A DNA stretch of 41,560 nt from Propionibacteriaceae bacterium (lineage in GTDB: Bacteria; Actinomycetota; Actinomycetes; Propionibacteriales; Propionibacteriaceae), in NCBI GenBank assembly GCA_009780915.1, contig WQZD01000023.1, forward strand, positions 1 to 41,560. The letters run 5' to 3'. The notes under the pieces were generated by a model. It did not search any database. It saw only the letters and a program-made list of their open reading frames with translations, and was not told the DNA's origin. A program made the translations under genes and the position numbers. The number at the start of each line of letters is the position of its first letter. Within the stretch, counting starts at the first letter, position 1. Shown here in pieces: positions 31,334 to 39,695 of this stretch.

Positions 31334-32614
31334 TCAGGGACGTAGAGCCGTGAGGGGGCATGTGACTGTGCCATCGTCGCAGACATAGGTCTGACCCGTC
31401 CCCGTGACTACCATACGGAAGGCCGGCTGCGACACCACAGTGGAATCGATTTGGCTGATGGCCTTCGCGAGCGACAGTCTGCCCTCCCCGATTTGACCGG
31501 CGCCAAGTTTGATCTCGATGGCGCCCCACCGGCCATCGGGCAGGGTCACAACGGCATCAATCTCGTGGCCATTGGAATCTCGGTAGTGTCGGACCTCTGC
31601 TTCCAGCGAAGCGGACAGGATACGTAGGTCGTGGATCACTGCGCTTTCGAAGAGGAGGCCGACCGTCGCCGGATCCCTGCTCAGTGACTCTTTGCTGGCG
31701 CCCAGCGCCGCGGCCGCAAGCGCGGGATCGGCAAGATGCTGCCTGACCGACGACCTCAAGCGAGCGCGAGATCGCAGTGCGGGCGCCCACGCCTTCTGAG
31801 GTTCTAGCACGAAGAGCTGTTCCAGCACGCCTGTGTACGTGGCCACCGTGTCGGGAGTGATGGTCGGGGCCACTTGTCTGACGTCCGCCGCCAATGTCGA
31901 GTAGGAGACTTCTGAAGCCACCGACCGTGCCAGCGAGTTGAGGAGCTGTCGCATGACAATGGGATCATGTCGCATGTCAATGAGCCGAGGCATGTCCACG
32001 CGAGCGACGTCGTCAAGATAGGAGCGCAACATGCGTTGACTTCGTTGGGGTGGAAGATCTCGCAAGCCGGGAAACCCTGGACGTAAGAGACGGCCCAACA
32101 CGTCCGAGTAGGTCAGGGGTTGCGATAGATCGGGCGTCGGCACGCCGCCGTCGAACAAGTCAGACAGGCTCACCCCTGTGGATGTGGGCAGTCCATCCTG
32201 CTCGAACCATGTCAGCGTTCGCTGTTGAATCCGCATGACTCGTGCCGCACCGGTGTGCCGTGTGACGTCATCCGCAGGGGTCGCTGAGCCAGTGAGTAAG
32301 AACTGGCCCTTCTCCGAGGACGCGTCCACTGCTCTGCGGACAAGGTTCCATAATTGTGGCATTAATTGCCATTCATCGAGTAACCGCGGCCTCGCTCCCT
32401 CGAGGACGGCCTCCGGGGCCACTCGCACGATGTCGGCGGTGACAGGATCGTCAAGCATGGCGCAGGATGCGGCGGCGTTCGTCGCTGTCATGGTCTTTCC
32501 TGAACCACGGGGTCCCTCGATGAGCACTGCGCCTGCTGACGCCAATGACTCCACGACAAGGGGATCTATGACACGTGGCTGGTATGGATGTCCGAGCAGA
32601 TCCTGAGTGTCCAT
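31334..32614 (-). CDS. AAA-type ATPase with DUF4143 and nuclease-like C-terminus
   Basis: The 426-residue protein has the layout of a widespread orphan family: P-loop IEGPRGSGKTMTATNAA (~33-49), Walker B-like RPRLLDEWQLMPQLWNLVRRAVD, sensor QFLLTGSATPADDV, a DUF4143 helical middle (YLDDVARVDMPRLIDMRHDPIVMRQLLNSLARSVASEVS), and a C-terminal PD-(D/E)xK-like segment (GHEIDAVVTLPDGRWGAIEIKLG). The cellular role of the family is not established. It is a single-gene unit flanked on its 5' side by tandem repeat arrays. The ATG has no Shine-Dalgarno but a leaderless-type -10 at 32621-32626. Confidence 0.88.
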   Translation of the reverse strand: MDTQDLLGHPYQPRVIDPLVVESLASAGAVLIEGPRGSGKTMTATNAAASCAMLDDPVTADIVRVAPEAVLEGARPRLLDEWQLMPQLWNLVRRAVDASSEKGQFLLTGSATPADDVTRHTGAARVMRIQQRTLTWFEQDGLPTSTGVSLSDLFDGGVPTPDLSQPLTYSDVLGRLLRPGFPGLRDLPPQRSQRMLRSYLDDVARVDMPRLIDMRHDPIVMRQLLNSLARSVASEVSYSTLAADVRQVAPTITPDTVATYTGVLEQLFVLEPQKAWAPALRSRARLRSSVRQHLADPALAAAALGASKESLSRDPATVGLLFESAVIHDLRILSASLEAEVRHYRDSNGHEIDAVVTLPDGRWGAIEIKLGAGQIGEGRLSLAKAISQIDSTVVSQPAFRMVVTGTGQTYVCDDGTVTCPLTALRP

Positions 32615-32626: not shown

Positions 32627-32652
32627 GCATTATGACCCATGTCGCAGGGTCT

Positions 32653-32744
32653 CTAGGACGGAAGTTGCAGGGGTTCTAGGGCGGAAGTTGCAGGTACCCT
32701 AGGCCGGAAGTTGCAGGACTTCTAGGGCGGAAGTTGCAGGATTT
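32653..32744. repeat. Four tandem 23-bp repeats
   Basis: CTAGGGCGGAAGTTGCAGG recurs at 32653, 32676, 32699 and 32722, an exact 23-bp period; only the base before CGG and the 4-nt spacers vary. A decayed fifth copy may lie at 32630. The short regular period, with spacers of only 4 nt, rules out CRISPR. The array runs straight into a second, different array. Confidence 0.95.
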
Positions 32745-32747
32745 TCG

Positions 32748-32821
32748 GGTCAGCTGTGCCCGTAGTGGTCAGCTGTGCCCCAAGGGGGTCAGCTGTGCCC
32801 CGAAGGGGTCAGCTGTACATC
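32748..32821. repeat. Four tandem ~20-bp repeats reaching into the Alr-like gene
   Basis: GGTCAGCTGTGCCC(C) occurs at 32748, 32767 and 32787, and as GGTCAGCTGTACAT at 32807 (period 19-20). The last copy contains the stop codon and final Ser and Tyr codons of the Alr-like gene. Two short-period arrays of different sequence side by side resemble the multiple terminal repeats of IS21-like elements, but no transposase is present, so origin remains open. Confidence 0.9.
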
Positions 32822-33885
32822 GGGAGCCCGCGGACGTACCTGCGCGGCACTCGGGAGGTGAGCAGGCAGACGGGCTCTTCGGCGACGCCGTGGGTGTGGG
32901 CGGCGATCTCGTCGAGGTGGCGGGGGTCGCGGATGACCACCACAGTGTCGCCGGACAGGACGGTCTGGTCGACGGCGATCAGGGTGACGTCCATGGTCAC
33001 CGCGACGATGGGGTAGCGCCGGTCGTGGATGAACACGTCGCGGCCCACGTTCGCTTTGGCCAGGCCGTCGCCGTACCCGATGGGGAGCACGGCCACCCGG
33101 CCGTCCGTGTCGGCGGTGTACGAGCTGGCGTACCCGATCCGGTCGCCCTGGCGCAGGTTGACGACTTGAGCCACCTCGGTGCGCAATTGGAAACAGGTTT
33201 CGAGGCCGAGGGAGTCGTTCTCGATCCCGTAGATGAGGTTGCCGATGCGGCAGGCGTTGGAGTACGGCTTCCGCGGGTACCGGGGAAGCGTCAACGAGTT
33301 GGACGCGCTCACCACGGGGATCTGTGTCAGGTCGATCCCGGCGGTCATCTCCTCGAACGCGTTGTACTCGGCCAGCGTCTCCGCCTCGTCCTCGGGGTGG
33401 TAGTTGTGCAGGTAGATCCCCTCCAGCTGAGCCGGCGAGTTGTGGATCAGGCGATAGAGTTCGGTGAAGCCGGACTTGGTGGTCGGTCCGCCGAAGAGGT
33501 CGTGGCCGCCGTTGGCCCGGAGGAAGACTTTGAGCCCCGGCACTCGTACGGCGCGACGCGCCTGGTCCAGGGTCGCCACCGTCACCGCGATGTCCATCTC
33601 CTGCAGAGCGGGCAGGGACTTCTCGGGGGCTGGCACGAAGATGAGCACGGGCACATCGGGCGCGTACCGGCGCACGGCCAGCGCCTCCTCCGGCAGACTG
33701 ACGCACAGGTAGTCGCATCCGGCGTCGACGAGCGTCCTCACCAGGGGCATCCCCAGGCCGTAGCAATCAGCCTTGATCACCCCGACCATGTGCTCGTACC
33801 CCGGGTACGCCCGCTTGATGACACCCAGATTCCGCCTGACGGCGTCGACATCCACGTACAGGGTGGTGGGACGGTACTGCTCCAT
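32809..33885 (-). CDS. Alanine racemase-like PLP enzyme with altered substrate loop
   Basis: The 358-residue protein has a fold-type III racemase layout. VIKADCYGLG (residues 36-45) holds PLP lysine K38, and IGYASSYTA holds the second catalytic base Tyr (Y252); LPIGYGDGLAK and VTMDVTLI are also present. What differs is the loop normally reading KxDTGMxRxG, with the carbamylated Lys and the catalytic-region Arg: here it is VFLRANGGHDLFGG (120-133), losing the Lys, TGM and Arg. RPGIxxYG is CRIGNLIYG. It may racemise another amino acid, or bind one without turnover. The start at 33885 has GGAG 6 nt upstream; the ATG at 33897 is an alternative. It is the last gene of the MurT-like operon. Confidence 0.82.
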   Translation of the reverse strand: MEQYRPTTLYVDVDAVRRNLGVIKRAYPGYEHMVGVIKADCYGLGMPLVRTLVDAGCDYLCVSLPEEALAVRRYAPDVPVLIFVPAPEKSLPALQEMDIAVTVATLDQARRAVRVPGLKVFLRANGGHDLFGGPTTKSGFTELYRLIHNSPAQLEGIYLHNYHPEDEAETLAEYNAFEEMTAGIDLTQIPVVSASNSLTLPRYPRKPYSNACRIGNLIYGIENDSLGLETCFQLRTEVAQVVNLRQGDRIGYASSYTADTDGRVAVLPIGYGDGLAKANVGRDVFIHDRRYPIVAVTMDVTLIAVDQTVLSGDTVVVIRDPRHLDEIAAHTHGVAEEPVCLLTSRVPRRYVRGLPMYS

Positions 33886-33897
33886 GGCAATCTCCAT

Positions 33898-34608
33898 CTA
33901 GTCCAGGGCGAGTCCGGGCCGGCGCATCTCCGCCAGCTTCTTCTCGTACGCCCGATAGGTCTCGGCCTCGAAGGGGAGGTCGTCGGGCGCACCCAACTCG
34001 GCGAGCAGACGTTTGGTCACATCCGGATTCGCGATCAACAACGGACCAAGTATATAGGTCGCGTACAGTCTTCCGCTGTGAATTCCCTCGATCCGAGTGT
34101 CCGGATTGAGCCCGACGCCCATCTGCACGGTGACCAGGCCGGGCAGGTCCGCGTCCGGGTAGGCGTGTGAGAAGCGGCTGGTGTAGCCGACGACGGTCGT
34201 CCCGTCGGCGTCCCCCATGATCAGGGAGTTGAACCGGGTGGGCGCCTGGCGGACGGCGTGCAGCGGGAGGAGGCCGAGCCCTTCCTTGCGCGTGCCGTCC
34301 TCGCGGCGGATGAAGGTCCCGAACAGTTCGAGGGCGTTGCCGGTCAGGAGGATCGTCGTGCGCCCGGCGTCCATGATCTCGCGCAGGCGATCACGGTACG
34401 GCCACAGCAGGTCGATCAGCAGTTCCTGGCTGGCCTCGCTCATGGACCCGATGTAGATCAGGTCCACATCCTCGGCGGCGAAGCGGGGGGTGTCGGTCAG
34501 CGCGGTGCGGATCACCTCGGCGTCGGGCAGGCAGCGCTGGAGATAGAGCCAGTTGGCCTTGTCGCCGTACAGGCAGCAGACTTCCGGATACAGGACTTCG
34601 ATCTTCAC
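33898..34608 (-). CDS. GatD-like glutamine amidotransferase homologue lacking catalytic residues
   Basis: The 236-residue protein aligns along its length with GatD, the glutaminase of lipid II isoglutaminyl synthase: CCLYGDKANWLYLQR (cf. YxDxGNxxxLxxR), DLIYIGSMSEASQELL, EGLGLLPLHA, and LYATYILGPLLIANPDV. The nucleophile region, normally CGGYQxLG, reads LLTGNALELFG (87-97) with no Cys nearby; the catalytic His of TYLHGP is Leu (L187). Both halves of the dyad are therefore missing while the frame and flanks are intact. It cannot be expected to release ammonia from glutamine; a structural or regulatory partner of the MurT-like protein is more likely. GTGA overlap with the upstream gene shows coupling. 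Confidence 0.85.
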   Translation of the reverse strand: MKIEVLYPEVCCLYGDKANWLYLQRCLPDAEVIRTALTDTPRFAAEDVDLIYIGSMSEASQELLIDLLWPYRDRLREIMDAGRTTILLTGNALELFGTFIRREDGTRKEGLGLLPLHAVRQAPTRFNSLIMGDADGTTVVGYTSRFSHAYPDADLPGLVTVQMGVGLNPDTRIEGIHSGRLYATYILGPLLIANPDVTKRLLAELGAPDDLPFEAETYRAYEKKLAEMRRPGLALD

Positions 34609-35984
34609 CGTGCGGCCCCTTCCAGGGTGGACAGGATCCGGGCTTTCATGGACATGGCCACATCGTAGGTCGAGGTGTCGTAGAGGATATAGACCGAGTC
34701 CATCCCCGCGGTGAGGATCCTCGTGTGGGCGTCCGCTTCGGACTCGCAGCACTGGATCCGCTCGTGGGGCACCCCGGCAAGGAGCAGGCGGACCTCGTAG
34801 TCATAGCAGCGCGGACCGCAGGCGATCACCTGCACCACGTCCGGGTCGGCCAGGAATTCGAAGTCGGCGTCGTAGATCCAGCCGATGTACTCGACGGAGG
34901 TCTTGCGGTCGTACCAATCGTCCATGGCCAGGACGACGACCTTGCGCCCCGGTTCGTGGGTGACGAAGTCGAGGGTACGGGACGTCGACACGCAGCTCTG
35001 TCCTTTGCTCATGGCCTGCACCACGGTCACGTCGCCGACCTGGGTACGTCCCAGGCGCGAGTCCACCACGGCGAGGATGGACAGGCCGGCCTCGACGCGC
35101 GCCGGATCCAGTCCGATCTCGGTGAGCGTGGCGATGACGGCCAGCTGATTGTAGATGTTGAATGTCACGGTGCTGACAAGGGGATACGTGTGGGTGGCGC
35201 CGTCGTGGGCGACTGTGAAACTGGTTGCGTCGCTCTCGACCCGCTCCACGACGTAGTCGCAGTCCTGCGACGCGAACCCGCATGCCGGGCAGTGGGCCCG
35301 TCCGATGTGGTGGTACCGCAGATGGTCGTACGCCAAGCCCGTGTGGCAGCGCGGGCAGGTCGAATAGTCGGACACCAGGTTGATGGAGTCCGTGCGGTCC
35401 CCCGCCATGGACTCGATTCCGAAGAACACCCTCGGGTTCCCCGCTCGCTCGCCCAGCCGGGACGAGCACAGGTCGTCGCCGTTGAGCACGAGCCGAGTGT
35501 CGTCGGGGGTGTAGGTGTCGAGCACGTCGAAGATGTAGTCCGGGTGGGCGTTGCGCTTCAGGGAGTCGCGGAAGAGGTTGGTCACGACCAGGTACGTGGG
35601 GCGGACGTACGGCAGGATCAGCCGGGACGCCCGCTCGTCCACTTCGAGGACGCAGGCGTCTTTGTTCGGCTTCCCCGACCAGGACACCGCGTTGGTCAGC
35701 GACGACGCGATCCCCGGCGCGATGTTGGAGCCCAGCCGGTTGGTGGACACCGAGTACCCCTGGCCCACCAGCACGTCGGCGATCATGTTGGTCACCGTGG
35801 TCTTCCCGTTCGTGCCCGTCACGCACACGACGAGCTCAGGTTTGGCGATGAGTTCCAGGAAGTCAGGGCACACATGCAGGGCCAACCACCCCGGCAGGTT
35901 GGAGGCGTTGCGCCCGAGCAGGCGCAACCCGCGATAGGTCGCTTTCGCCAGGGCGAGCGCCACCCACAGCCTGACCACCGACAT
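34605..35984 (-). CDS. Divergent MurT-like Mur ligase (DUF1727)
   Basis: The 459-residue protein matches MurT: an N-terminal helix, VTGTNGKTTVTNMI (P-loop 57-63), NRLGSNIAPGIASSL, VLEVDERAS, TNLFRDSLKR (MurT: NxFRDQxDR), and the inserted Cys4 zinc ribbon CPRCHTGL...CPACGF. The C-terminal DUF1727 part ends WIYDADFEFL... Deviations: KNPxGxN is SKGQSCVS, and the NDxxADGRDxSW region that meets GatD reads MDDWYDRKTSVEYIGW with an insertion. ATP-dependent activation of a carboxylate is likely kept; the nitrogen donor and substrate may differ from ammonia and lipid II D-Glu. The start has GGAG 5 nt upstream. It is the first gene of the three-gene operon, 81 bp after the PFOR stop. Confidence 0.87.
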   Translation of the reverse strand: MSVVRLWVALALAKATYRGLRLLGRNASNLPGWLALHVCPDFLELIAKPELVVCVTGTNGKTTVTNMIADVLVGQGYSVSTNRLGSNIAPGIASSLTNAVSWSGKPNKDACVLEVDERASRLILPYVRPTYLVVTNLFRDSLKRNAHPDYIFDVLDTYTPDDTRLVLNGDDLCSSRLGERAGNPRVFFGIESMAGDRTDSINLVSDYSTCPRCHTGLAYDHLRYHHIGRAHCPACGFASQDCDYVVERVESDATSFTVAHDGATHTYPLVSTVTFNIYNQLAVIATLTEIGLDPARVEAGLSILAVVDSRLGRTQVGDVTVVQAMSKGQSCVSTSRTLDFVTHEPGRKVVVLAMDDWYDRKTSVEYIGWIYDADFEFLADPDVVQVIACGPRCYDYEVRLLLAGVPHERIQCCESEADAHTRILTAGMDSVYILYDTSTYDVAMSMKARILSTLEGAAR

Positions 35985-36065
35985 TCGATCTCCGTCCCAC
36001 ATGCGCCCGAGCTGGCACGCGATCTAGCTTACCGAATGATCACGACACGACTTCCGGCCCCCGGC

Positions 36066-39000
36066 TCACCGGCCCATCAGCTGGGCGCCCTGGGCGTCGG
36101 CTACGAAGTCTTGGCCGGGCTGGCGGGCCATCTGCTCGTACTGGGTCCATCTCTGGTCGACGGTGAGTTGCGCCAATCGGGCCATCTCCTCCGCCTCCTC
36201 GGGGTCGGCGGAGACCAGCATCTTGTACCGCAACTCGTTGTAGATATAGTCCTTGACCTTCAGCCTCGGCCTCGGGGAGTCCAGCAGGAAGGGGTTGGCG
36301 CCCGTGCCGCGCGTGACCGGGTTGTAGCGGATCAGCGGCCAGTGCCCGCAGTTGACCGCGCGGTACTGCTGGTCAAGCCCCTTCTGCATGTCGATCCCGT
36401 GGGCGATGCAGTGGCAGTACGCGATGATCAGGCTCGGGCCGTGGTAGGCCTCGGCCTCGCGGAAAGCCTTGAGGGTCTGCTGGGGGTCCGCGCCCATGGC
36501 CACGCGTGCGACATAGACATTGCCGTACGAGATGGCCTGCATGGCCAGGTCCTTCTTGTTGGTGCGCTTGCCTGCGGCGGCGAACTTGGCCACGGCGCCC
36601 AACGGGGTGGACTTCGACGCCTGGCCGCCGGTGTTGGAGTACACCTCCGTGTCCATCACCAGGATGTTCACGTCGCGCCCGGATGCGAGCACGTGGTCCA
36701 CCCCGGAGGAGCCGATGTCGTACGCCCAGCCGTCGCCGCCGACGATCCACACCGACCGGCGGATCAGATGATCGGCCACCGACAGCAGGTCCTCGGCGCG
36801 GGCTGCCACGGACGGGTCTCCCGTGGCCGTGAGGGCGGCCAGTCTGGCCTTGAGGTCGTCGATCCGGGCGAACTGCCGACGGATGTCGGACTCGTACTGC
36901 TGCGGCGCGGCGAGGATCTCGTCCACGAGGTCAGGGTCGAGGGCGCCGCGCATCCCCTCCAGGCGCTGGCGGGCCATGTCGGTCTGCAGGTCGGCGGCGA
37001 GCCTCAGGCCCAGGCCGAACTCCGCATTGTCCTCGAACAGGGAGTTGGACCACGCCGGGCCGCGGCCCTGGTCGTTCTTCGCCCACGGCGTGGTGGGCAG
37101 GTTGCCGCCGTAGATGGACGAGCACCCCGTCGCGTTGGCCACGCTCGCCCTGTCCCCGAAGAGCTGTGAAAGTAGTTTCAGGTACGGCGTCTCGCCGCAC
37201 CCCGCACAGGCGCCCGAGAACTCGAACAGCGGCTGGAGGTACTGGGCGCCGCGCACCGTGCCGAAATCCAGACGGGAACGGTCGTTGTAGGGCAGCGATT
37301 GGAAGAAGTCGACGTTGCGCGTGGCGTCGGTCTTGTCCGGCATCGGGGTGAGGTTGATCGCGCGCCGATTGGGGGTTTTGACGGGACGGACCGGGCAGGC
37401 CTCCACGCAGAGGCCGCAGCCGGTGCAGTCCTCCGCGAAGACTTGGAGGGTGAAGGAGCCCTCGGGCACCCCGGCCGCGTTCAGCGGGGCTTTCTGGAAG
37501 GAGGGTGGGGCGTCGGCCGCCGCCGCGGTGGGATAGTACTTCGCACGGATCACCGCGTGCGGGCACACGAAGGCGCAGTTGCCGCACTGGATGCACTCGT
37601 CGGGGTCCCACACCGCGACGATGTCGGAGATGTTGCGCTTCTCGTACTGGGTCGTCCCCGACGGATAGGACCCGTCCACGGGCAGGGCCGACACGGGCAG
37701 GGTGTCGCCCTTGTCGAGGATCATGGTGGCCGTCACCGTGCGCACGAAGTCGGGCGCGGTCGGCGGGACCGGCTGGACGTACCCCTGATGCCCCACCGGC
37801 GTCGCCGGCACATCGATCTTGTGCAGATGGGCGATGGCGTGGTCGACCGCCGTGTGGTTCTTCTCCACGATCTCGGCCGACTTCTTCTGGTATGTCTTCG
37901 TGATGGCGTCCTTGACGGCCTTGATCGCGACGTCGGTGGGCAGGACCCCCGAGATCGCGAAGAAACAGGTCTGCAGGACGGTGTTCGTCCGCCCGCCGAG
38001 GCCGGCGGAGCGCGCGACCTCGTTGGCGTCGATGGTGTACACCTGGATCCCCAGGTCGATGATCCTCTGCTGCATCGGCTCGGGGAGGTGGGCGAAGACC
38101 TGGTCGGGGGCGTGGGCCGAGTTGATCAGCAGGATCGTGCCGGGCCGGGCGTACGCGAGGACGTCCACCCTCTCCAGCACCGACCACTGATGGCATCCGA
38201 TGAAGTCGGCTTTGGAGATCAGGTACGGCGCGCGGATCGGGTCGGGCCCGAAGCGCAGGTGGGACACGGTGCGCGACCCCGACTTCTTGGAGTCGTAGAC
38301 GAAGTACCCCTGTGCGTACAGGGGCTCGTCGCGGCCCTCGGCCGGGGTGGTGCCCAGGATCTTGATGGTGTTCTTGTTGGCGCCGACCGTGCCGTCGGAG
38401 CCCAGGCCGTAGAAGACCGCGCGCGTGGTGCTCGGCGACTCGATGTCGACGTCCCGGTCGTAGTCCAGGGAGAGCAGGGACACGTCGTCGGTGATGCCGA
38501 CCGTGAACCTCGGGCGGGGGCTGGGGCCGGCCATCTCGTCGACGATCCCCGTGACCATCGCCGGGGTGAAGTCCTTGGAGGACAGCCCGTACCGCCCGCC
38601 GATCACCCTCGGCATGGTGTCGAGGGCCCCACGGGAGTACGCCTCGCCGACCGTGGTGAGCACGTCCTGGAACAGCGGCTCGCCGTTCGAGCCTGGTTCC
38701 TTCGTCCTGTCGAGGACCGCGATTGTCCGTACAGTTGCCGGAAGCGCGGCGAGGAAAGCCTCGGTGGGCCAGGGCCGATAGAGCCGCACCGTGATGACGC
38801 CGACCTTGGCGCCGCGGGCGGTGAGGTACGACACGGTCTCGTGGACGACCTCGCCTCCGGAGCACATGACGACGATCACCGACTCGGCGTCGTCGGCGCC
38901 GTGGTACTCGACCAGCCCGTACTTTCGACCGGTCAGCTCCGCGAAGCGGGCCATGACGTCCTCGACCACGCCGGGGACCTTGGCGTAGAAGGGGTTGGCC

Positions 39001-39695
39001 GTCTCGCGGGACTGGAAGTAGGTGTCGGGGTTCTGCGCCGTGCCACGGATGAAGGGGTGCTCGGGGCTGAGGGCGCGCTCACGATGGGCGCGGACCAGTT
39101 CCACCGGCACCATGGCCCTCAGGTCGTCGTCGGAGAGCATGCGTAAGGTGTTGAGCTCGTGGGAAGTGCGGAACCCGTCGAAGAAGTGCAGGAAGGGCAC
39201 GCGCGACTCCATGGTCGCCACCTGGGAGATGAGCGCGAAGTCGTGCGCCTCCTGCACGGACGCGGAGCCGAGCAGGGCGAAGCCCGTCTGGCGTACCGCC
39301 ATGACGTCCTGATGGTCGCCGAAGATGGACAACCCCTGCGTGGCCAGGGAGCGGGCCGCCACATGGAAGACCGTGGAGGTCAGCTCGCCCGCGATCTTGT
39401 ACATGTTGGGGATCATGAGCAGCAGGCCCTGTGAGGCGGTGAACGTCGTGGACATCGCGCCGCCTTGGAGGGCGCCGTGCATGGCGCCGGCCGCTCCGGC
39501 CTCGGACTGCATCTCGATGACTGTCGGGACGGTGCCGAAGATGTTCTGTCTCTTCTGGGCAGACCACTCGTCTGCCAGTTCGGCCATCGTGGAACTGGGC
39601 GTGATGGGGTAGATCGAGCACAGCTCGTTGCAGCGGTAGGCCACCGAGACGGCGGCTTCGTTCCCGTCGATGATTCCCCTTGTCGTGTCAGTCAT
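36066..39695 (-). CDS. nifJ: Pyruvate:ferredoxin (flavodoxin) oxidoreductase
   Basis: The single-chain 1209-residue enzyme converts pyruvate and CoA to acetyl-CoA and CO2, reducing ferredoxin or flavodoxin. Domains in order: the pyrimidine-binding domain (YRCNELCSIYPITPSSTMAELADEW), the transketolase-C-like domain (~260-420), the gamma domain (YGLGSDGTVGANKNTIKI, FVYDSKKSGSRTVSHLRFGPDPI), the two 4Fe-4S ferredoxin motifs CIQCGNCAFVCPHA (C701) and CTGCGLCVEACPVRP (C757), and the thiamine-diphosphate domain (ACAGCGETPYLKLLSQLFGD, GCSSIYGGNLPTTPW, MDTEVYSNTGGQASKSTPLGA). Length and order are normal. AGGAGGCGACC precedes the ATG, 13 bp after the GltD-like stop, so the two are co-transcribed. It indicates anaerobic pyruvate metabolism. 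Confidence 0.97.
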   Translation of the reverse strand: MTDTTRGIIDGNEAAVSVAYRCNELCSIYPITPSSTMAELADEWSAQKRQNIFGTVPTVIEMQSEAGAAGAMHGALQGGAMSTTFTASQGLLLMIPNMYKIAGELTSTVFHVAARSLATQGLSIFGDHQDVMAVRQTGFALLGSASVQEAHDFALISQVATMESRVPFLHFFDGFRTSHELNTLRMLSDDDLRAMVPVELVRAHRERALSPEHPFIRGTAQNPDTYFQSRETANPFYAKVPGVVEDVMARFAELTGRKYGLVEYHGADDAESVIVVMCSGGEVVHETVSYLTARGAKVGVITVRLYRPWPTEAFLAALPATVRTIAVLDRTKEPGSNGEPLFQDVLTTVGEAYSRGALDTMPRVIGGRYGLSSKDFTPAMVTGIVDEMAGPSPRPRFTVGITDDVSLLSLDYDRDVDIESPSTTRAVFYGLGSDGTVGANKNTIKILGTTPAEGRDEPLYAQGYFVYDSKKSGSRTVSHLRFGPDPIRAPYLISKADFIGCHQWSVLERVDVLAYARPGTILLINSAHAPDQVFAHLPEPMQQRIIDLGIQVYTIDANEVARSAGLGGRTNTVLQTCFFAISGVLPTDVAIKAVKDAITKTYQKKSAEIVEKNHTAVDHAIAHLHKIDVPATPVGHQGYVQPVPPTAPDFVRTVTATMILDKGDTLPVSALPVDGSYPSGTTQYEKRNISDIVAVWDPDECIQCGNCAFVCPHAVIRAKYYPTAAAADAPPSFQKAPLNAAGVPEGSFTLQVFAEDCTGCGLCVEACPVRPVKTPNRRAINLTPMPDKTDATRNVDFFQSLPYNDRSRLDFGTVRGAQYLQPLFEFSGACAGCGETPYLKLLSQLFGDRASVANATGCSSIYGGNLPTTPWAKNDQGRGPAWSNSLFEDNAEFGLGLRLAADLQTDMARQRLEGMRGALDPDLVDEILAAPQQYESDIRRQFARIDDLKARLAALTATGDPSVAARAEDLLSVADHLIRRSVWIVGGDGWAYDIGSSGVDHVLASGRDVNILVMDTEVYSNTGGQASKSTPLGAVAKFAAAGKRTNKKDLAMQAISYGNVYVARVAMGADPQQTLKAFREAEAYHGPSLIIAYCHCIAHGIDMQKGLDQQYRAVNCGHWPLIRYNPVTRGTGANPFLLDSPRPRLKVKDYIYNELRYKMLVSADPEEAEEMARLAQLTVDQRWTQYEQMARQPGQDFVADAQGAQLMGR

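Follow-up and report, generated by a model that had tools for sequence, protein, structure and literature searches.

The window analysed here is a contig of 41,560 nucleotides (WQZD01000023.1) from a Propionibacteriaceae bacterium, and it encodes a MurT-GatD pair in which the glutaminase residues of a known peptidoglycan amidation complex are replaced while the ATP-site residues of the ligase are kept. We propose that MurT and its glutaminase-dead GatD probably form an ATP-dependent ligase that adds an amino acid to the alpha-carboxyl of D-glutamate 2 (D-Glu2), the most likely candidate in the window being D-2,4-diaminobutyrate supplied through EctB and a racemase. Somewhat less firmly, we favor the broader view that such pairs are the ligase, long missing, with which the group-B (2-4) bridge begins, that they arose at least twice by glutaminase loss, and that the pseudo-GatD acts as the amino acid specificity subunit. 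The three genes concerned lie in a row:

34605..36002, minus strand: MurT-like Mur ligase of 465 aa, with Mur_ligase_M and MurT_C domains, zinc-ribbon cysteines and an intact GTNGKTT P-loop
33898..34608, minus strand: GatD-like protein without the glutaminase Cys and His, with a GTG start and the motif T-G-N-A-x-E
32809..33897, minus strand: alanine-racemase-family protein with two Alr domains, which keeps the pyridoxal phosphate (PLP) Lys and the Tyr and has R-x-N-G-G-x-D-L-F-G-G-P in place of K-x-D-T-G-M

This set, including the altered racemase, was recovered as minus-strand open reading frames (ORFs) in agreement with the original prediction, which was made from the window alone. The GTG start of the GatD-like gene overlaps the MurT-like stop as GTGA, and the racemase ATG abuts the GatD-like stop, with a second Met 12 bp further on. 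A Met at 35984 provides an alternative start for the MurT-like ORF. The MurT-like and GatD-like proteins match their Staphylococcus aureus counterparts with E=2e-48 and E=1e-16, respectively, and the racemase matches alanine racemases with E=8e-32, scoring 168.5 bits on the alr model TIGR00492, barely above its cut-off of 168.

In S. aureus numbering, the Cys94 position of the window GatD is Gly (TILLTGNALELFG) and the His189 position is Leu (TYILGPLL), and the third, inter-subunit triad residue, MurT Asp349, is Tyr372 in the window, leaving all three glutaminase triad residues replaced. The ATP-site residues of MurT are intact, including the P-loop Lys and Glu120 (S. aureus E108), and its KNPxGxN motif, described as lost in the original prediction, is changed: the Lys remains, whereas other residues stand at the aligned N, P and G. 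The nucleophile Cys and the His were also said to be gone, and for the Cys a predicted structure agrees: in an AlphaFold model of the window GatD (predicted local distance difference test [pLDDT] score of 94.2, predicted template modeling [pTM] score of 0.91, 28 sequences), the nucleophile elbow (strand 85-89, helix 90-96) falls at Gly90, and the nine best Foldseek matches to the model are GatD chains of S. aureus, Streptococcus pyogenes and Streptococcus pneumoniae. A Cys or His that has moved elsewhere in GatD is ruled out by this model together with an alignment of 28 window-type GatDs, where no substitute column is conserved (best Cys 17/28, best His 13/28). The C94A, H189A and R128A mutants of S. 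aureus GatD are reported to be inactive as glutaminases (PMC5871853), and MurT D349N to abolish amidation (PMC6113224). Since the triad residues are lost and the C94A, H189A and D349N mutants are inactive, glutamine-dependent amidation by the window pair is very unlikely. The earlier judgement that this pair does not form isoglutamine normally is thereby upheld, also with regard to the rest of the genome: a MurT_C search of the assembly (2.78 Mb, 99.4% complete) gave the window copy only, with no second MurT.

The word "scaffold" used for the pseudo-GatD at the outset may undersell it, as window-type GatDs carry a conserved motif of their own where the Cys elbow would be, T-[GH]-N-A-x-[ED]. 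Live elbows have a Gln (53/53 actinobacterial and 18/18 Firmicutes rows), and at this position 98% of 107 window-type rows have Glu or Asp, a few genes being represented by two rows (e.g., L124 and L082). Window-type GatDs retain an Arg within one alignment column of R128, the residue reported to hold glutamine in S. aureus GatD (PMC5871853), and we infer that an amino acid may now be bound at this former glutamine site.

The dead-GatD state is a conserved clade across phyla and not a one-off. Scanning a collection of species genomes with four window-type sequences gave 57 named loci, which by their record titles comprise Propionibacteriaceae metagenome-assembled genomes (MAGs), Microbacteriaceae (Schumannella, Glaciihabitans and others), many Oscillospiraceae, Lachnospiraceae and other Clostridia, as well as Erysipelotrichaceae, Bacillales and one Tenericutes MAG; isolate names suggest that the Propionibacteriaceae MAGs come from insect guts. 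Cys is absent in all 57, His in each of the 56 whose second site could be read, and a MurT adjoins the dead GatD in every one, part of the co-occurrence that the original prediction had proposed to look for. Retention of the dead state in all 57 relatives rules out a decayed gene or a sequencing error. Within the order of the window, 87 of 245 genomes have a GatD match, and 27 of the 29 best-scoring loci besides the window keep Cys and His, the two exceptions being window-type. Two Firmicutes families, as grouped by the search tool, are split between the two states: in that of the Erysipelotrichaceae MAG (GatD match in 52/77 genomes), 18 of 30 loci read lack both residues and 12 keep both, and in that of the Eubacteriaceae MAG (25/80 genomes), 24 of 30 lack both and 6 keep both, with none mixed (one residue only), these reads including one gene counted twice (L292 and L308) and three repeats of named loci (L249, L250 and L279). 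The partner MurT follows suit, with Asp at the Asp349 position in 0/70 window-type rows (2 gaps; some genes included twice) versus 70/70 live rows from outside the Firmicutes.

A second type of GatD lacking Cys and His was also seen (L298, L300-L303, L035 and L243); most of its members have an elbow resembling G-[TA]-[TS]-G-A and a stretch resembling TNxLGPxxVKNP. L035 lies in the window's own genus, with an ornithine-racemase-like gene adjoining. On each of two contigs, a pair of dead GatD genes occurs, with a spacing of about 1 kb in one case (L288/L307 on G840:C127) and about 3 kb in the other (L284/L306 on G879:C23), suggesting two ligases in one cell that perhaps differ in their amino acid. 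In a 104-row tree of GatD, the window type and the second dead type group together, and a Microbacteriaceae dead clade stands separately among live actinobacterial GatDs.

The Microbacteriaceae are held to have peptidoglycan type B throughout. We sampled 150 genomes of this family, that of the Schumannella genome, and fetched all 110 GatD genes, which come from the 105 genomes with a match. Cys is absent from 93 of the 110, and 17 keep Cys and His; among the 93, 37 also lack His and one was split by the aligner with the His in its second piece. The 93 include ten GatDs of the window type and a single one of the second dead type. Counted by genome, 88 of the 105 carry dead GatDs only and 3 carry both kinds. 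Outside the Microbacteriaceae, 53 of 56 actinobacterial GatDs read keep Cys and His, the three dead ones being the window GatD and two window-type GatDs, versus 17/110 inside the family (p about 1e-24, an indicative value given related genomes and best-scoring loci only). In the class sample, 26 of 30 read loci are live, and the other four are the window and three of a family (f39) that shares contigs with the Microbacteriaceae sample. MurT_C was found in 103/150 Microbacteriaceae genomes, and its 17 top scores (71-95 bits) belong to the partners of the 17 live GatDs, with the rest at or below 63 bits. An Alr-family gene lies near 27/93 dead and 0/17 live Microbacteriaceae loci (p=0.011 with 1.5- and 4-kb flanks pooled), an enrichment that is suggestive only. 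These Alr-family genes often come as tandem paralogues, one being an ordinary KxDTG enzyme; at four loci (L164, L176, L210 and L243), such alanine-racemase pairs stand beside MurT-GatD with one copy apparently degenerate, and they perhaps form a heteromeric racemase.

Gene neighborhoods, many of them read as short stretches, include racemase or diamino acid genes at some members of the clade. The order EctB-MurT-dead GatD-racemase occurs in a row at L088; EctB also adjoins the pair at L081, L098, L108 and L121 and lies 2 kb off at L071. A window-type racemase follows the dead GatD at L067, L084 and L088, and an ornithine-racemase-like gene lies beside it at L034/L071 and after it at L035. MurJ lies next to the pair at L087, L096 and L107, all of them Propionibacteriaceae loci, and an aspartokinase and an ATP-grasp gene precede it at L032/L096. 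A Pfam survey of 60 chosen neighbor ORFs returned mostly scattered families, led by Aminotran_3 in 5 and ATPgrasp_ST in 4. Genome-wide, EctB (E<=1e-100) was detected in 16 of 50 dead-GatD genomes, one match being a fragment, versus 1 of 30 live-GatD genomes (p=0.0019). The dead-GatD set represents 49 of the 57 loci, with G211 added and 8 loci omitted because they were near copies or came from the same genome; the live-GatD set was hand-picked and differs in kinship, and one of its genomes (G799) has a second, unclassified GatD. The four loci near the window in sequence or tree (L067, L068, L071 and L111) all have EctB in their genomes. An ATP-grasp protein was seen near the dead pair at 8 of the 57 named loci (L086, L087, L096, L100, L109, L110, L112 and L115), with four of the scanned neighbors matching ATPgrasp_ST, and could add a further bridge residue.

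The genome of the window organism holds both a predicted diaminobutyrate-synthesis gene of the EctB class and an extra racemase. The EctB-class aminotransferase, on contig C9, scores 551.2 bits on TIGR02407, one bit below the cut-off of 552.2, and 582.8 bits on NF006733 against a cut-off of 438; by eye, its gene lies near ATP-binding cassette transporter and ribosomal-protein ORFs. A role of this enzyme in ectoine synthesis was set aside because no EctC match was found in the genome, a weak argument, as no control genome gave a match either. The Ala_racemase_C domain occurs twice, in the window gene (92 bits) and in a canonical alr with an unaltered KxDTGM loop on contig C16 (166 bits), which rules out the window racemase as the sole housekeeping alr. 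Compared with that alr, the window racemase keeps PLP Lys42, Arg217 and Tyr256 and has LRANGGHDLFGGP at the KxDTGM site; it has no match to KxDTGMxRxG, the substrate loop motif of alanine racemase, so that the loss of the loop and the survival of the Lys and Tyr were both described accurately at first.

Taken together, the loss of the triad, the retained ligase site, the failure to find a second enzyme, the racemase and diamino acid genes at some members, and the concentration of the dead state where D-Glu is known to be substituted are explained most economically by an aminoacyl ligase for D-Glu2. In the window organism, EctB would make L-2,4-diaminobutyrate and the window racemase would convert it to the D-form. 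The GatD partner, its glutaminase triad lost, would serve as an amino-acid-binding or gating subunit, and the pair would attach D-diaminobutyrate to the alpha-carboxyl of D-Glu2, the substituent being the branch through which group-B (2-4) cross-links would run. From comparison we infer the ligation itself, which amino acid is joined, in what order the steps run, and the acceptor, which may be lipid II or an earlier intermediate. The idea that MurT joins a different amine, handled by the racemase-like protein, is thus favored by the comparative evidence, but the product is probably the known group-B branch instead of the new wall modification first imagined.

Several observations weigh against this proposal. 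EctB, Alr or Orr was found at only 9 of the 57 named loci within the stretch read (L100 is just a fragment), and 34 of the 50 dead-GatD genomes gave no EctB match, so that in those either a different amino acid is used or the MAG is incomplete. The window organism is known as sequence only, its wall type, and with it the amino acid presumed on the D-Glu2 alpha-carboxyl, being read from gene content, and Cutibacterium, a Propionibacteriaceae genus, is tabulated with wall type A in a review (PMC11382707). In the Microbacteriaceae, 55 of the 93 Cys-less GatDs keep His, making that type less altered than the window's, 14 of the 105 genomes with a match carry a Cys/His-intact GatD only, and 45 of the 150 gave no match. 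The Alr enrichment there is not significant at either flank size (4 kb, 24/72 versus 0/8, p=0.097; 1.5 kb, 3/21 versus 0/9, p=0.53), and some of the locus racemases are ordinary KxDTG enzymes. As for separate origins, a single origin of the dead state is rejected with MurT and GatD combined (approximately unbiased test, p-AU 0.0006; 100 rows), but on a quick tree under LG+G4, a simple and less safe model, and with GatD alone a single dead clade is not rejected (p-AU 0.36). The partners of Microbacteriaceae-type dead GatDs keep MurT Asp349 in 84/84 rows (some genes included twice), another respect in which they are less altered than the window type; set against its loss in the window-type MurTs, the same pattern fits separate origins.

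Three other explanations compete with the aminoacyl ligase. The complex might still amidate D-Glu from free ammonia, with the dead GatD as a structural cap, like synthetase halves that work without their glutaminase. Ammonia-dependent synthetase activity is well known for amidotransferases, and both the MurT ATP site and, by the AlphaFold model and Foldseek, the GatD fold are intact. We nevertheless consider this unlikely, as it leaves unexplained why racemase and EctB genes adjoin some pairs, why EctB is in excess in dead-GatD genomes, why a new motif, T-[GH]-N-A-x-[ED], is conserved, and why Cys loss is concentrated in a family with group-B walls. The enrichment in that family also tells against a non-peptidoglycan substrate, such as a gamma-glutamyl or envelope polymer, as do the retained zinc-ribbon cysteines and overall family of MurT and the MurJ genes at L087, L096 and L107. 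The varied neighbor genes would suit such a substrate, and the Mur-domain relative CapB is reported to have a role in poly-gamma-glutamate synthesis (PMC11915815), but we regard it as very unlikely.

A closer competitor in chemistry is the same ligase acting with a different amino acid, for instance the glycine of B1 or glycine-substituted walls, the racemase having some other role. Group-B bridges can start with Gly, Gly occurs on D-Glu in other wall types, and at most of the 57 named loci neither a racemase nor EctB was seen within the stretch read. This explanation is improbable for the window, where the racemase directly follows the dead GatD, the genome has a normal alr of its own, and EctB is present as well; the near relatives L067, L068, L071 and L111 likewise all have EctB.

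Group-B walls, a class credited to Schleifer and Kandler, have reportedly been recognized since the 1970s. Among the open-access matches listed, we found no paper that names the enzyme substituting the D-Glu alpha-carboxyl in these walls, and none that links MurT or GatD to group-B walls or diaminobutyrate. A paper on the archaeal Mur family reports MurT and MurT-like proteins, and no amino-acid-adding MurT was found in the portion available (PMC11915815). If the aminoacyl ligase proposal is true, a known amidation complex turned into an aminoacyl ligase through losing its ammonia supply, and the annotation of the dead-GatD clade as isoglutaminyl synthase is wrong. Wall type would then be predictable from the GatD Cys and His, plus MurT Asp349 in the window type, and many gut Clostridia and Actinobacteria could be typed in this way.

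The surroundings of the three genes include the following feature:

36066..39695, minus strand: pyruvate:ferredoxin oxidoreductase gene, directly upstream of MurT on the same strand with a gap of 63 bp

It is possibly cotranscribed with MurT, GatD and the racemase, and we claim no functional link. Synteny of this upstream gene in Clostridia was considered and dropped, as the 1,211-aa neighbor at L068 matched Sulfatase only. Two neighboring tandem arrays lie right where the racemase gene has its 3' end, at 32652-32741 (23-bp unit TCTAGGGCGGAAGTTGCAGGACT, 3.9 copies) and at 32747-32816 (unit of about 20 bp, GGGTCAGCTGTGCCCCAAG, 3.6 copies). Beyond them, an AAA_14/DUF4143 ATPase gene (31334-32614, minus strand) has a third-position GC content (GC3) of 0.68 versus 0.91-0.94 in its neighbors and was possibly acquired.

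Among known systems, the window pair is closest to the MurT-GatD isoglutaminyl synthase, known from structures of S. aureus, S. pneumoniae and S. pyogenes, with which it shares gene order, the GatD fold, the Mur ligase core, the zinc ribbon and the ATP-site residues. It differs in the replacement of Cys94, His189 and MurT Asp349, the altered KNPxGxN, the change of elbow Gln98 to Glu and the racemase that joins the operon. That racemase resembles Alr and the ornithine racemase Orr in its PLP Lys, Tyr and Arg, but it lacks the KxDTGM loop and instead has an R-x-[ND]-x-G-x-D-[LF]-[FY]-x-GP stretch in common with L067, L084 and L088; beside the sister loci L034/L071 and L035, the racemase is an Orr-family gene. 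In the amino-acid-adding Mur ligases MurC-MurF, the amine of the amino acid attacks an acyl phosphate, and the same chemistry is expected of MurT. Unlike MurE and MurF, MurT has no uridine diphosphate-binding N-terminal domain (PMC6113224), and in contrast to MurC-MurF it acts on the D-Glu alpha-carboxyl with GatD as its partner.

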